Shown here: positions 6,238 to 13,351 of the stretch, piece after piece
Layout of the letters: each line of letters starts with the position of its first letter
Position numbering within the stretch: position 1 is the first letter of the stretch
NCBI GenBank assembly: GCA_018333865.1
Contig: JAGXSE010000066.1
Span: forward strand, 1 to 64,000
Source: Syntrophomonadaceae bacterium
Lineage (GTDB): Bacteria > Bacillota > PH28-bin88
Reading direction: 5' to 3'
DNA length: 64,000 nt
Program-made: the position numbers and the translations under genes
Notes under the pieces: generated by a model
What the model saw: only the letters and a program-made list of their open reading frames with translations
Told to the model about the DNA's origin: nothing
Database searches by the model: none

Positions 6238-7719
6238 TTAACTGTTTTCCTTTTTCGGCCTTAAGGCATACAAGGCCAGGAATATCGAAACTACCGATAA
6301 AATTAAAAAGGCAAGGGAAATCGGGCTTTGGATGAAGACCATCCAGTCGTTACGCGACAGTAACAAAGCGCGGTTTAAATTCTCCTCCGCCATTGGGCCA
6401 AGAACAACACCAAGGACCAAAGGGGCAGCCGGGTAATCGTATTTTCTCATGAAATAGCCGATAACTCCGAAAACCAGCGCCACCAAGACATCAAACATGC
6501 TGTTTTGCAGGGTGTAGGCTCCAACCACACACAAGACCATCACAACAGGCATTAAAATATTGTAAGGAACCTTTAAAATATAGGGAAAAATCCTTGTGGA
6601 AAAAAGCGCTACAAAAAGCATAGTAAATTGGATTACAATCAGCCCGGCAAATAATGCGTAAACCACATGCGGCTGATCGACAAACAACATCGGACCAGGC
6701 TTGATGCCGATTAACATTAAGGCCCCCAACATCACCGCAGTTACCACATCTCCGGGAACTCCCAGGGACAGCATCGGCACCAGGGCACCGCCAGTTGTCG
6801 CATTGTTAGCTGCTTCTGGTGCGGCTATCCCTTCGTAAGAACCGCGACCAAATTTTTCCTTGTTTTTCGACCACCGGCGGGTCTCATTATAGGCTAAAAA
6901 GCAAGCAATCGCCCCGCCGGTGCCAGGAATAATCCCAATAAATACGCCAATAATCGCGCCAATAATTAATGCCAAAACTACCCCTTTGATCTCCGGAATT
7001 GTCGGGATAGTGTTTCTCAACTCTTGCTGCACAATTTCCCCGGGTTTTTTCTTGCTTTCCACTTCCCACAACACCTGGGAGACTGCAAATACACCAATTA
7101 ATACCGCTACCAGAGTAAAGCCGCCCATCAGTTCCGGTATACCAAAGGTAAAACGCGCCATTCCTGCGATACCATCAATCCCAACGGTGGCAACTAATAG
7201 GCCAAACCAGCCGGAAATCAACCCCTTGATCAGGTTATTCCCGGATGTGCTGGCCATAATTGTCAATCCAAATATAGCCAGCATAAAATAGTCTGCCGGC
7301 ATAAACTTTAAAGCCACTTTTGCCAGTTGCGGGGCCAGCAGGATCAGGCAAAAAACACTGAATAGCCCCCCGGCAAAAGAACCGAGGGCTGCTATGCCAA
7401 TGGCCTTGCCGGCTTGGCCCTGTTCAGTTAACGGATAACCATCAAGAAGAGTGGCGGCGGCCGAAGGAGTGCCAGGAGTCCTGATTAAAATGGCGGAAAT
7501 GGATCCGCCATACATGGAACCACAATACATTCCCGCCAGCATAATCAAAGCAGTGCTAGGATCCAGGTAATAGGTTAACGGCAAAAGCAGGATTATCCCC
7601 ATTGAAGCTGTCATCCCGGGCAAGGCCCCAATGATGATCCCGCCGACAACTCCCAGTACCATATACGCAAAGGTTAGCGGCTGAAATACTATCACAAACC
7701 CATTAAACAGATGTTCCAT
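6238..7719 (-). CDS. tctA: TctA, large membrane subunit of tripartite tricarboxylate transporter
   Basis: 493 residues, highly hydrophobic with about 11-12 predicted membrane segments, matching the TctA family (PF01970). Signature stretches such as GALPGMTASMG, GGSISAILIRTPGTPSA and GIIPGTGGAIACFLAYN are visible. TTT systems import carboxylates with a periplasmic-type binding protein using an ion gradient. It lies 23 bases after tctB in the order tctC-tctB-tctA and precedes catabolic genes. Substrate unknown; tricarboxylate or other organic acid. Confidence 0.93.
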   Translation of the reverse strand: MEHLFNGFVIVFQPLTFAYMVLGVVGGIIIGALPGMTASMGIILLLPLTYYLDPSTALIMLAGMYCGSMYGGSISAILIRTPGTPSAAATLLDGYPLTEQGQAGKAIGIAALGSFAGGLFSVFCLILLAPQLAKVALKFMPADYFMLAIFGLTIMASTSGNNLIKGLISGWFGLLVATVGIDGIAGMARFTFGIPELMGGFTLVAVLIGVFAVSQVLWEVESKKKPGEIVQQELRNTIPTIPEIKGVVLALIIGAIIGVFIGIIPGTGGAIACFLAYNETRRWSKNKEKFGRGSYEGIAAPEAANNATTGGALVPMLSLGVPGDVVTAVMLGALMLIGIKPGPMLFVDQPHVVYALFAGLIVIQFTMLFVALFSTRIFPYILKVPYNILMPVVMVLCVVGAYTLQNSMFDVLVALVFGVIGYFMRKYDYPAAPLVLGVVLGPMAEENLNRALLLSRNDWMVFIQSPISLAFLILSVVSIFLALYALRPKKENS

Positions 7720-7742
7720 AGTATTTGGGCAACCTCCCCTTG

Positions 7743-8189
7743 TTAAAATAAGGAGAATTTGGGCAATAAAACTTGAAAGGCAGAAGTAAATACCCCATAT
7801 ATTGCTCCCGCGCAGGTAATGCTGATGAATAGGGCGCGGAATCGTTCCTTCACCCCGAATAAGAAAAAGGCTGCCATTAAATAAATCGGCGTCAAATACA
7901 AAAAACCAAGATATGGCATGAATTGGATATATGCATAGGTAATTAACGTCAAGGCCGCAACGTAGCGCAAAGCATTAGGGGGATAAAGCCCCTTCAGCGG
8001 CTTTAAACCTGCAACATAGCTTTTTACTGCCAGGATCCCCCCTAGAACAAACAATCCAGTGACAATAAAGCGGGGGTAATCACCAGGACCAATGCCAATG
8101 GGGGCTCTAGGCATATCAAGAGTAATCAAGTACACTGACGCCGCAAATACCATGACCCCAACACCGCCAAAAAAATCCGCCCGGGACAT
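7743..8189 (-). CDS. tctB: TctB, small membrane subunit of tripartite tricarboxylate transporter
   Basis: 148 residues with about four membrane helices; PRAPIGIGPGDYPRF near residue 30 is the conserved loop of the family. It pairs with the large subunit next to it. Separated from the upstream tctC by 248 bases holding a long stem-loop, which may lower expression of the membrane parts relative to the binding protein. Confidence 0.88.
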   Translation of the reverse strand: MSRADFFGGVGVMVFAASVYLITLDMPRAPIGIGPGDYPRFIVTGLFVLGGILAVKSYVAGLKPLKGLYPPNALRYVAALTLITYAYIQFMPYLGFLYLTPIYLMAAFFLFGVKERFRALFISITCAGAIYGVFTSAFQVLLPKFSLF

Positions 8190-8318
8190 TCACAAAACCC
8201 CCTCGTTCTGTTAACAATTTTAGTAAGTACTCAGAACACCCCCACGCCGCCGATGGCGGTACCATCTGAGGAACGAAAATGGGGGCTATTTTCAGGGCAG
8301 GAATGCATTTGAATGACC

Positions 8319-8412
8319 GCCCAACACTCAATCACGAGCAATAAGTAAGATGGCCTGCATCAGACAAGATGCCAGCCGAGTCTCATCGCGATCGCTAGAT
8401 TGAGTGCTGGGC
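8319..8412 (-). promoter_or_regulatory. Long stem-loop between tctC and tctB
   Basis: A 15-base inverted repeat (8319-8333 with 8398-8412, one mismatch) encloses a 64-base loop that itself holds a GCATC/GATGC hairpin. No T-run follows, so it is more likely an mRNA-stability or processing element than a terminator. The rest of the 8190-8437 spacer shows no gene. Confidence 0.5.
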
Positions 8413-8437
8413 TACGCCCATGTATTAACTGAGCGGA

Positions 8438-9772
8438 TTAAAAATAGCGGTCACCCAGCTTGTTTTCTATAATCACCCTTTTAAATTTAGCGTCCTCTTC
8501 CCGGATCAATTTACCAAACTCCTCCGGGTTCAGATAGGAATGGCCAAACCCTAACCCCCGCAATCTTTGCTTAAATTCCGGATCTCTCATGATCCGGGCA
8601 AATATATCATGCAGCCTAGCTTGGATCTCAGTTGGCGTTTCGTTTGGGGCAACGATGCCCCGCCATTGAGGAAGAAGCAGATTGACTCCTTGTTCCCTGG
8701 CAGTTGGCGCGCCGGGAACCAGATCGGTTCTCTCTTCGGCAAATAGGGCTAAAATGCGTAGTTGGCCGGCGGCAACATTGGTAAGCCCCTCTGGGGCTAT
8801 ATTCATCGAAGCATCTACGTGCCTGGCCAATAATCCGGTCACTGCCGGGCCTCCGCCCCCATAAGGCACATGCAGGAACGGGACTGTAAAATCTTGCAGC
8901 AACAATGCCGCCAGGTGGTGCCCGCCCCCAATGCTGGCATTGGCAATGCTAAGCGGTTTTCTTCTGGCATCCGCAAGAAATTCATTTAAATTCTTGTAAG
9001 GCGAATCAGCCCTTACCAGCAGGTAGTTATGGTCTTTAGTCTGTTTTATGATGGGAGCAAATGAGGTTGCCTCAAATCCTACCTTACCCATATGAGTTCT
9101 AATAACTTGGGCCGTATTCCAGTGCAAAATGGTGTAGCCATCCGGTTTAGCCTTGGTAAATTCCATAATTGCCGGAACAGCGGCGCCGCCAGGGATATTC
9201 TTTATCAGCAATGGATGACCGTTGGCATATTTTGGAAAGAACTCAGCGGTTGCCCTGCTAAGCAAGTCAGAAGCCCCCCCTACAGCCCAACCTACAATCA
9301 ATGTAACCGGCCTGTTAGGAAAGTCCAAGGCCGGTGCTGGTGCCGGAGCTGGTGTTGGTGCTGGTTTGGGCGCTGGTGCAGGCGCCGGAGCAGGCACAGG
9401 CGCTGGGCCGCCAAGCGGAACTACGGTACCAGGTCTCGGGGTTGGGACTGGAGCCGGCGCTGGGGCAGGCGTAGGCGCAGGCGTTACAGCTGGCACTGGC
9501 AGCGGGGGCGGAGGCACTGGCAACGGAGCCGGCGCTGGCGCAGGAACAGGTACCGGAGCAGGTGTTGGCGCAGGAACAGGTACCGGAGCAGGTGTTGGCG
9601 CAGGAACAGGTACCGGAGCAGGTGTTGGCGCAGGTTTGGGCGCTGGTGCTGGTGCCGGTGCTGGTGCCGGCGGTTGAGCTGTCTGCTGCACGCCACATCC
9701 CGTCACCAGAACTGCCATCACAAAACCAATCAATAAGATCAGACTTAACCTCTTGATCGTTTTTCTGGACAT
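8438..9772 (-). CDS. tctC: TctC-family solute-binding lipoprotein with long Pro/Ala linker
   Basis: 444 residues. A lipoprotein signal ends in LVTGC (Cys26). Residues 33-148 are almost only Pro, Ala, Val and Thr in PAP-type repeats. The TctC/Bug domain begins near residue 150 ([19 protein letters not shown]) and runs to the end with typical [17 protein letters not shown] and [15 protein letters not shown] motifs. Usual family members are about 320-340 residues, so the linker adds over 110. It captures a carboxylate and delivers it to the TctAB permease. The linker may hold the binding domain away from the membrane through the cell wall. Ribosome site GGGAGGG precedes the ATG. Confidence 0.9.
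9541..9630. repeat. Three exact 30-bp tandem repeats inside tctC
   Basis: Three consecutive identical 30-base units (9541-9570, 9571-9600, 9601-9630) encode a ten-residue [10 protein letters not shown]-type unit of the Pro/Ala linker. Exact DNA identity indicates recent slippage or recombination. The surrounding 9329-9676 is degenerate repeat of the same kind. Confidence 0.95.
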
Positions 9773-9997: not shown

Positions 9998-11272
9998 TTA
10001 ATATAATGTGGCTCCCCTATCTCTTTCAGATGTTATGGCAGCTTCCGCCAATATCCCTGCCTGTGATGGCCTAAAAAGCTCCCTTAGAGCCAAGGCGCAA
10101 GCCCCTATGGTAGCGGCGTTTTTACCCAAACCAGAAAGCTCCACTCTAGTAGCCCGGGCTATTTCAGGAAAAGCATGGGTTTTCACTGCTTCCTGTAATG
10201 GGCGCAACAGGACTTCCCCTGCTGCAGCCAACTTACCGCCAACAAAGACCGCTTCGGGATTATACAGGTTAATCGCCCCAGCTATGGCTACCCCCACAAA
10301 GCGGCCCACTTGCCGGATTAATTGCCAGGCATAGGATCCTTCTATTTCAGACTGTTTAATTATATCCTCAATAGTTACTTTCCCCTGTTTTTCCCACAGG
10401 TCTTTTAAGGCATCCTCTCTTTTTAAAACAGGCAGTTCTTCATTGGCTGTTCTTACCACTGCTAAGGCGCCACAGATGCTTTCCAGACAGCCCCGGTTAC
10501 CGCAATTACACAGAGGACCTTCACTCATAATCACAACGTGTCCAATTTCGCCGGCGTGGCCTTGAAAACCCTGGACAATGCGATCATCCATGATCACCCC
10601 GGCACTGATACCTTCACCTAAATTCACATAGACAAGGTTTCGGCTGTCTGTCCCTTTCCCAAACCAGCGTTCCGCCAGTACCGATGCATTAGAATTATGT
10701 TCAACAAAAACCGATAATCCAACTTCTCTTTCTAAAACATCCTTTATTGGGAAGTTATTCCATTCAGGACCAAGGTTAACAGACCTCTTTATGATTCCTT
10801 CCTTAGCCATCAAAAGACCGGGGAAGGCCACGCCGATACCCATAAAATTATTTTTTGACATCCCGTCCGAATTCATCACTTTGTCAATTTCTTTGGCTAG
10901 AGAGAGGACTGCCCGATGAGGATTGCTCATATCCAAAGGCAGGCGGTGAAGCTTCATAGGGTCGTTTTTTAAATCAGCGATCCCAATATTAACTTCATAA
11001 CGGGTAACCTCTAAACCAATAACCAAACCAGCCCTGGGGTTAAATTTAAGCTTTACAGGCTTCCTCCCGCCATTAGATGCGCCTAAACCCTCTTCCTTAA
11101 TCAACCCAAGATCCACAAGCTCTCTTACTATGGCAGTGATTGCCGGGGGAGTAAGCCCAGTAATCTTCGAGAGCTGTTGGCGGCAAATAGGCTCATGTTC
11201 TTTTATAATATTCAGTACCGTCATCCGGTTTAGCTTTTTTACGTATTTGCTATTCCCTGGATTTTTGTTCAA
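9998..11272 (-). CDS. ROK-family transcriptional regulator (NagC/XylR type)
   Basis: 424 residues. An N-terminal winged helix-turn-helix (residues about 15-75, ICRQQLSKITGLTPPAITAIVRELVDLG) is followed by a ROK sugar-binding domain. The zinc-binding ROK signature GHIGH-type segment GHAGEIGHVV and CNCGNRGCLE are intact. Such proteins repress sugar genes and release DNA on binding a sugar or sugar phosphate. It lies directly upstream of the tctC operon on the same strand and is its most likely regulator. A terminator separates it from the selenoprotein gene upstream. Confidence 0.88.
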   Translation of the reverse strand: MNKNPGNSKYVKKLNRMTVLNIIKEHEPICRQQLSKITGLTPPAITAIVRELVDLGLIKEEGLGASNGGRKPVKLKFNPRAGLVIGLEVTRYEVNIGIADLKNDPMKLHRLPLDMSNPHRAVLSLAKEIDKVMNSDGMSKNNFMGIGVAFPGLLMAKEGIIKRSVNLGPEWNNFPIKDVLEREVGLSVFVEHNSNASVLAERWFGKGTDSRNLVYVNLGEGISAGVIMDDRIVQGFQGHAGEIGHVVIMSEGPLCNCGNRGCLESICGALAVVRTANEELPVLKREDALKDLWEKQGKVTIEDIIKQSEIEGSYAWQLIRQVGRFVGVAIAGAINLYNPEAVFVGGKLAAAGEVLLRPLQEAVKTHAFPEIARATRVELSGLGKNAATIGACALALRELFRPSQAGILAEAAITSERDRGATLY

Positions 11273-11494: not shown

Positions 11495-11950
11495 CTATTT
11501 TGCTGTTTTTGTCTGGAGATAATCCGCCACCCAGCCTAGGTACTGGCGGCACTTTTCGTCAAAAACCTTGTTTTCTTTAGCCTGCTGCCGCTCGCCAGGA
11601 TCTAGCAGGTTGTAACCGATTAACTGCCTGCAGTCAACTTCCTCGAATTCGGCGGAAAAAGCCGACAAGAAATGGGAAGCCGCATCGTAAACCCTTATTT
11701 TTCCTTCGTTATCACTGCTAACATCTCTTCCTTGCAGCAATCCTAAGGCCATGAGTCCACCTGTAAGCGCTCCGCAAACCAAACCATGCCGGCCTATGCC
11801 CCCACCAAAAGGTGAGGCAATTCTGGGGATCAGGCTGGTTTCCAGATCCAGCACATCCTTCACACCGTGAAGGACCGATTCCGCTCAATTAAAGCCATTG
11901 CTTACCGTATCAAAGTGCTGTTGAACTCGCAGATTTAAATTGTTCTCCAT
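11495..11950 (-). CDS. C_GCAxxG_C_C-type redox protein, probable selenoprotein (in-frame TGA = Sec22)
   Basis: Reading from ATG 11950, preceded by AAAAGGATGG, gives about 151 residues with a TGA at codon 22 (11885-11887). Around it the frame reads GFN-TGA-AESVLHG; family members (PF09719/TIGR01909) have Cys here in an NCA-type motif. The other conserved cysteines follow: VCGALTGG, DCRQLIG and EKCRQYLG. A perfect 8-bp stem with GGT loop begins 11 bases after the TGA, matching bacterial SECIS rules. A conventional caller would start at GTG 11863 inside that stem and lose the motif cysteine. It lies 30 bases after the trpB-like gene, so is probably cotranscribed. Likely a thiol/selenol redox protein; partner unknown. 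The alternative is a pseudogene with a nonsense mutation. Confidence 0.8.
11856..11874 (-). promoter_or_regulatory. SECIS-like hairpin downstream of in-frame TGA
   Basis: On the minus strand TCCTTCAC-GGT-GTGAAGGA, an uninterrupted 8-bp stem with a three-base loop beginning GG. The loop starts 19 bases after the TGA. Published bacterial SECIS criteria ask for a loop 16-37 bases away, 3-14 bases long, with G in the first two positions; all are met. Confidence 0.75.
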
Positions 11951-11980: not shown

Positions 11981-13351
11981 CTATTTTATTTCCGGTAAGC
12001 AGGATAAACTGCGCTCCAAATAATCTGGCCCAAGTTCAACATCTTCCAGACGGCCCTCAATATAGGCATCATAAGCGGTCAGATCGAAGTTACCGTGGCC
12101 GCTTAATCCAAACAAGATCACATTGGCCTCGCCGGCTTCTTTAGCAAGAAGGGCTTCAGCAACCGCGCCTTTAATGGCATGGGCGCTTTCCGGAGCCGGC
12201 AATATTCCTTCTGTTCTGGCAAACAGGGCAGCCGCCTGAAAAACTTCACTCTGGCCGAAAGCCCTGGCAGAGATATGTCCCTCATGGTAAAGATGGCTCA
12301 CAAGCGGAGAATCCCCGTGATAGCGAAGCCCACCGGCATGGATCCCGGCAGGAACAAAATCATGCCCCAAGGTATACATCATCATTAAAGGGGTCAGCTT
12401 GGCGGTGTCGCCAAAGTCATAGGCAAATTTGCCCCTGGTCAGGGTCGGGCAGGCAGTTGGTTCAACAGCCAATATTTTTATCTTTTTATTATCGGCAAAA
12501 ACATCCTGTAAAAATGGGAAGGCCAGGCCGGCAAAATTACTGCCGCCACCGCAGCAACCAATGATTACATCAGGATACTCATCAACCTTGGCCAGCTGAG
12601 CTTTGGCTTCCAGTCCTATGACAGACTGATGCAACAACACATGGTTTAGCACGCTTCCCAAAGCATAATTTGTGTCACTCCTGGAAGCGGCATCTTCCAC
12701 CGCTTCGCTGATGGCTATGCCCAGGCTGCCGGTCGATTCGGGGTCTACCTCCAGGATGCTGCGCCCAGCATATGTCAGGTTGCTGGGACTTGGCACCACA
12801 GAAGCCCCATACACCTGCATAAAGGACCGCCGATAGGGTTTTTGATTATAGCTTATTTTAACCATATACACCTGGCATTCCAGCCCGAAAAAACTGCTGG
12901 CTACGCTCAATGCGCTACCCCACTGGCCGGCGCCTGTTTCGGTCGCCAGCCGTTTAACCCCCGCCGCTTTGTTATAATAGGCTTGGGGCAAGGCAGTGTT
13001 CAGTTTATGACTCCCCGCCGCATTTCCGCCTTCATACTTGTAATAGATGCGCGCAGGGGTATCCAAGGCTTTTTCTAAGCGGTAAGCCCGGAAAACAGGG
13101 GCTGGCCTCCACAAGGCATACAGGTCCCTGACCTCTTCTGGTATCTCCACCCAGCGGTCGGTGCTCATTTCTTGTTTGATCAATTCCATGGGGAAAATTG
13201 GCGCCAGGTCTTCCGGACTGGCTGGCTGGAGGGTGCCGGGATGCAATGGCGGTCTGGCCGGGGTAGGCAGGTCGGCCTGAATATTGTACCACCGGTGAGG
13301 GATGTCTTTCTCCTCTAGCAGAATCTTAGTCGGAATCTTTCTCAAGCTCAT
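11981..13351 (-). CDS. trpB: Tryptophan synthase beta-like PLP protein (TrpB2 type)
   Basis: 456 residues, longer than TrpB1 (about 400), with the N-terminal extension typical of TrpB2. The PLP lysine lies in GSHKLNTA, and the phosphate-binding loop is GCCGGGSN. TrpB condenses indole with serine to tryptophan. No trpA or other trp gene is nearby, so it may salvage indole or work on another substrate. It is followed after 30 bases by the probable selenoprotein gene, suggesting a shared transcript. Start ATG 13351 follows a GAGAGGAGAG site. Confidence 0.88.

Follow-up and report, generated by a model that had tools for sequence, protein, structure and literature searches.

In the window (the whole 64,000-nucleotide stretch of DNA analysed here), a reverse-strand frame from ATG 11950 to TAG 11495 is open apart from a TGA at 11887–11885, raising the question of whether this codon ends translation or is read as selenocysteine (Sec). 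From the codon position, the downstream structure, the relatives, and the gene content of the genome, we infer with high confidence that it is decoded as Sec in the cell.

Table 1. Positions of the features discussed (window coordinates unless a contig is given)
Feature	Position	Strand	Remarks
C-GCAxxG-C-C selenoprotein gene, 151 aa with Sec22	11495..11950	-	ATG start, TAG stop; predicted
TGA, codon 22, first motif cysteine	11885..11887	-	read as selenocysteine (predicted)
SECIS-like hairpin	11856..11874	-	8 bp stem, GGU apical loop 11866-11864
GTG	11861..11863	-	expected pick of a standard gene caller; drops Sec22
Cys59 (CGA), motif cysteine 2	11774..11776	-	
Cys107, motif cysteine 3	11630..11632	-	
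Cys134, motif cysteine 4	11549..11551	-	
TrpB-like PLP enzyme (NF009057)	11981..13351	-	upstream neighbour, 30 bp gap
ROK-family regulator, winged-helix DNA-binding domain	9998..11272	-	downstream neighbour
Tripartite tricarboxylate transporter genes TctC, TctB, TctA	6238..9772	-	further downstream
Exported split-Soret cytochrome c, in-frame TGA at first motif cysteine	C56:123291-124283 (L019 1318-2310)	-	same genome

The in-frame UGA and the hairpin downstream

The first-pass annotation had placed the TGA at the first conserved cysteine of the C-GCAxxG-C-C family, and this was borne out: in the frame from ATG 11950 it is codon 22, in the context GFN-U-AESVL, and the remaining three motif cysteines (residues 59, 107, and 134) are intact, as had also been claimed. 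The read-through product, with bit scores computed with C at the TGA position, matched PF09719 (E = 1e-24, 87.4 bits versus a curated cut-off of 27) and TIGR01909 (1.8e-18, 66.7 bits versus 47.4) over residues 20–146, and it contains both a CGAxxG-type motif and the four conserved Cys positions. When C was substituted for U, the U22, C59-G-A, C107, and C134 columns were invariant in a 44-row alignment. Inspection by eye placed AAGGA 8 nt 5′ of ATG 11950. The structure model of the protein was confident (pLDDT 92) and all-helical; the sequence has neither a signal nor a CxxCH haem motif, and its C-terminus reads QTKTAK, with no GUXX. A read-through scan of the whole 64-kb window left this gene as the sole credible candidate, two further entries being rejected as out of frame within transporter genes.

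Downstream of the TGA, the letters TCCTTCAC-GGT-GTGAAGGA form a hairpin of 8 perfect base pairs with a minimum free energy (MFE) of −16.4 kcal/mol. The stem and GGT loop had been described correctly in the first-pass annotation and the distance had not, the hairpin starting 10 rather than 11 bases past the TGA and its loop starting 18 nt past it. The bacterial SECIS rules given in PMC13188914 specify a loop of 3–9 nt, an upper stem of 4–16 bp, a spacing of 16–37 nt, a G within the first two loop positions, and an MFE ≤ −7.5; the window hairpin satisfies all of them, in line with the earlier claim for distance and loop. When the 20 codons downstream of the TGA were replaced by random synonymous codons, a stem of at least 8 Watson–Crick pairs at the same distance appeared in 0.1% of 20,000 recodings, and an equally low MFE in 0.3% of 3,000 recodings. 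Such a stem follows only 2 of the 1,872 TGA trinucleotides in the window, and only the stem behind the TGA at 11885–11887 has a GG/GU loop.

The genome (3.2 Mb, 71 contigs) was checked for selA, selB, selC, and selD, as had been proposed, and all four are present. selA (assigned from the ORF translation adjoining selB), selB, and tRNA-Sec (ARAGORN, anticodon TCA) lie side by side on one contig (C40). selD is on another (C18) and itself has an in-frame TGA, as do two molybdopterin oxidoreductase (FdhA-type) genes. In both fdhA genes, GGT occurs exactly 18 nt past the TGA, as in the window gene, and selD has a G-rich loop about 16–19 nt past its TGA; decoding would be alike in these genes and the window gene, whereas the proteins are unrelated. 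SelB and Sec-tRNA would read the UGA at 11887–11885 as Sec, decoding would be steered by the hairpin at 11874–11856, and the product would be a 151-aa all-helical C-GCAxxG-C-C protein with Sec22 in place of the first invariant cysteine.

Judging from their distance alone, the TrpB-like PLP enzyme gene and the window gene are probably on one transcript; terminator and promoter pattern scans performed no better than chance. Inspection of related loci by eye showed that zinc-type alcohol dehydrogenase genes adjoin a UGA relative as well as two close relatives with Cys, the latter both also lying near periplasmic-binding transport proteins. The neighbourhoods are therefore catabolic and transport-related, yet they differ in detail. 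Among other features of the window, the TctC-type binding protein (8438–9772, reverse strand) has a lipoprotein-like signal followed by a long Pro-Ala-Pro-Val repeat linker, a molybdenum/tungsten cofactor riboswitch (RF01055, 71 bits; 17225–17092, reverse strand) lies upstream of a molybdate-type ABC transporter (17019–14368), and a GCCCCGAA...TTCGGGGC repeat was seen, by eye only, 3′ of the window gene.

Cysteine and UGA among C-GCAxxG-C-C relatives

C-GCAxxG-C-C appears as a selenoprotein family, with forms 1 and 2, in PMC13188914 and is named once as such in PMC9312934. The NCBIfam title of TIGR01909 already says "(seleno)protein", and the Pfam title for PF09719 is putative redox-active protein. 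The selenoprotein status of the family was thus on record, a point absent from the first-pass annotation, and since the family is already in two reviews, the window gene represents a new, divergent member of a known family. The available text of these reviews does not state which cysteine is Sec in forms 1 and 2, and the accessible portions of two older lists (PMC2398784, PMC5029168) do not name the family. The window protein shares with the family the domain, the four-cysteine motif, the use of Sec for Cys, and a bacterial SECIS-type hairpin, but it is a distant member. The closest relatives found were about 45% identical, in a comparison set drawn from outside its species and genus, and the best of them (from genome G022) carries Cys. 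It also matches the N-terminal part of the HUGP/GUXX-star fusion selenoprotein (NF045501, 6e-17), yet it reaches 61.8 bits against a curated cut-off of 325 and lacks the GUXX-star tail.

As had been proposed, the family was aligned to check for Cys/Sec alternation. Among 146 family sequences from a phylum sample and GTDB genomes (window gene included), the first-cysteine column held Cys in 141, UGA in 5, and no third residue; 5/146 is not an estimate of frequency, since the sampling patterns can contain the Cys codon and so bias the GTDB set towards Cys. Motif cysteines 2 and 3 were never UGA in these sequences. One UGA in the fourth-cysteine column (L167, which by eye ends soon after as ...CRRLAGUNARI) was judged a stop or end-of-frame artefact and not a second Sec form. 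The genome-contig scan that gave matches used a three-sequence alignment as the query, and a search of a plasmid collection returned one distant Parabacteroides match only. An ordinary Cys paralogue with 26% identity (L017; C39:11028-11384, reverse strand) was also seen in the same genome.

Besides the window gene, UGA is found in two genomes of its own phylum (G026, G193) and in two Chloroflexota MAGs (L106, L170). Hairpins satisfying the published rules were found in all five, the four relatives that keep the UGA included. SelB scored above its curated cut-off in 4/4 of the other UGA genomes and in neither of two genomes with Cys orthologues (G022, G394). A 142-row tree placed the UGA members on five separate branches, implying five changes, at least four of them forced by well-supported branches.

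A Cys codon (TGC or TGT) becomes TGA by one base change, so the codon alone would also suit a recently inactivated gene whose TGA is a genuine stop, and the comparison set contained no close strains. We nevertheless consider such a pseudogene very improbable, given that nothing else breaks the frame, that the other three cysteines are intact, that the hairpin has a p of about 0.001 under recoding, and that four other relatives, on separate branches and all in SelB genomes, have UGA in the same column. A start at GTG 11863 would instead shorten the product to 122 residues and remove the first motif position. The first-pass annotation rightly anticipated that standard callers would choose this codon, which opens the longest frame under the standard code, but it lies within the 3′ arm of the hairpin, no purine-rich ribosome site precedes it by eye, and the residues lost include the invariant column of the family; that translation begins there is extremely improbable. 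The case illustrates how selenoproteins are lost in annotation, because an entry starting at GTG 11863 would omit the first motif residue. Decoding of the UGA as Sec is the reading that we carry forward.

Split-Soret cytochrome c genes with UGA

The third PF09719 match in the genome is the split-Soret cytochrome c gene in Table 1. Its product (NF047622, 4e-50; 1h21, 1e-39) has a Cu-amine-oxidase-N-like domain at its N-terminus, and the TGA sits at a cysteine conserved in 1h21 (GFGC-G). Two CxxCH motifs and a twin-arginine signal were recognised by eye. A phylum search yielded many relatives with one TGA. Across 70 split-Soret sequences, 22 had UGA for the equivalent residue, the other 48 all had Cys, and the following three cysteines were retained wherever the sequence reached that far. 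The in-frame TGAs that L209 and L210 carry 179–189 residues further downstream lie off the motif and were left out of the Sec count.

SECIS-like hairpins satisfying the rules were present in 22/22 UGA split-Soret genes, and the mean fold energy past the codon was −14.9 kcal/mol in the UGA forms versus −8.4 kcal/mol in the Cys forms (Mann–Whitney p 7e-9, not corrected for relatedness). In 13 UGA genes of the same register, stem pairs were kept at 95.6% with seven two-sided changes, and these stems exceeded all shuffles and slid controls on both pairing and covariation. The UGA forms implied five changes on a quick tree. Of the other UGA split-Soret genomes, 17 were checked and 16 had SelB; this count serves as a consistency check only, since most Cys split-Soret genomes of the sample have SelB too. 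The exception, G168, which carries the UGA-type split-Soret-like gene L219, gave no SelB at E ≤ 1e-65 in an assembly about 90% complete; SelB is present in its genus-mate G066, and the missing gene is probably an assembly gap. L219 and four other UGA split-Soret-like sequences (L222–L225) lack the haem CxxCH columns in the aligned part and are possibly haem-free or truncated forms.

Our literature search, of partial coverage, found no report pairing selenocysteine or selenoproteins with split-Soret cytochromes. Some split-Soret-type proteins may fall within "form 2" of PMC13188914; for both reasons, the novelty of a split-Soret selenoprotein is unproven.

A shared four-residue site and its possible role

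A profile–profile comparison linked the soluble C-GCAxxG-C-C family to the split-Soret domain (95.7%, E 1e-8), with the first Cys offset by about 2 residues and the other cysteines roughly coinciding. 1h21 was also the best relative of the window protein in the PDB by fold and sequence, albeit a weak one whose fold match (E 1.4) is not significant alone; a fold search against viral structures found no match. The split-Soret proteins (NF047622, 1h21) thus have a homologous domain whose four cysteines correspond, one after another, to the four motif positions of the window protein, and many members in this phylum share its UGA at the first cysteine. They differ in being exported and, in most members, having two CxxCH motifs, both features being absent from the window protein.

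Positions 22, 59, 107, and 134 probably form one redox site. That a signal-less protein has it in common with an exported dihaem cytochrome points to a site for electron transfer or for an Fe-S centre. The role of Sec22 within it can be read in two ways, which agree on the decoding. As a free selenol, Sec22 would form a selenenyl-sulfide with Cys59, Cys107, or Cys134 and act as a thiol oxidoreductase or a peroxide/disulfide reductase. Such a role would accord with the Pfam name and with the statement in section 8 of PMC13188914 that Sec commonly replaces redox-active cysteines. The window protein, however, has no CxxC or thioredoxin-like motif, and four spaced invariant cysteines resemble a metal site, leaving the free selenol a serious contender with somewhat less than an even chance. 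A published title reports a novel iron centre in split-Soret cytochrome c, which also speaks against a free selenol in a homologous protein. Abreu et al. reportedly described an iron–sulfur centre in that cytochrome; if that centre is as described, Sec would be a selenium ligand. An iron–sulfur centre with selenium as one ligand is accordingly the hypothesis we slightly prefer, at roughly even odds.

Taking both families together, we tentatively propose, with less confidence than for either role separately, that C-GCAxxG-C-C and split-Soret proteins share a redox or Fe-S site of four cysteines, the first of which has switched repeatedly between Cys and Sec. The Sec-containing split-Soret proteins would then form a widespread selenoprotein family that has so far gone unreported, in which selenium is adjacent to, or a ligand of, an Fe-S centre beside stacked haems. 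The repeated exchange of Cys and Sec marks the first cysteine as functionally critical in a large uncharacterised family. If confirmed, the extension to split-Soret cytochromes would bring a haem protein family into the selenoproteome and offer a direct test of a selenium ligand near an iron–sulfur centre.
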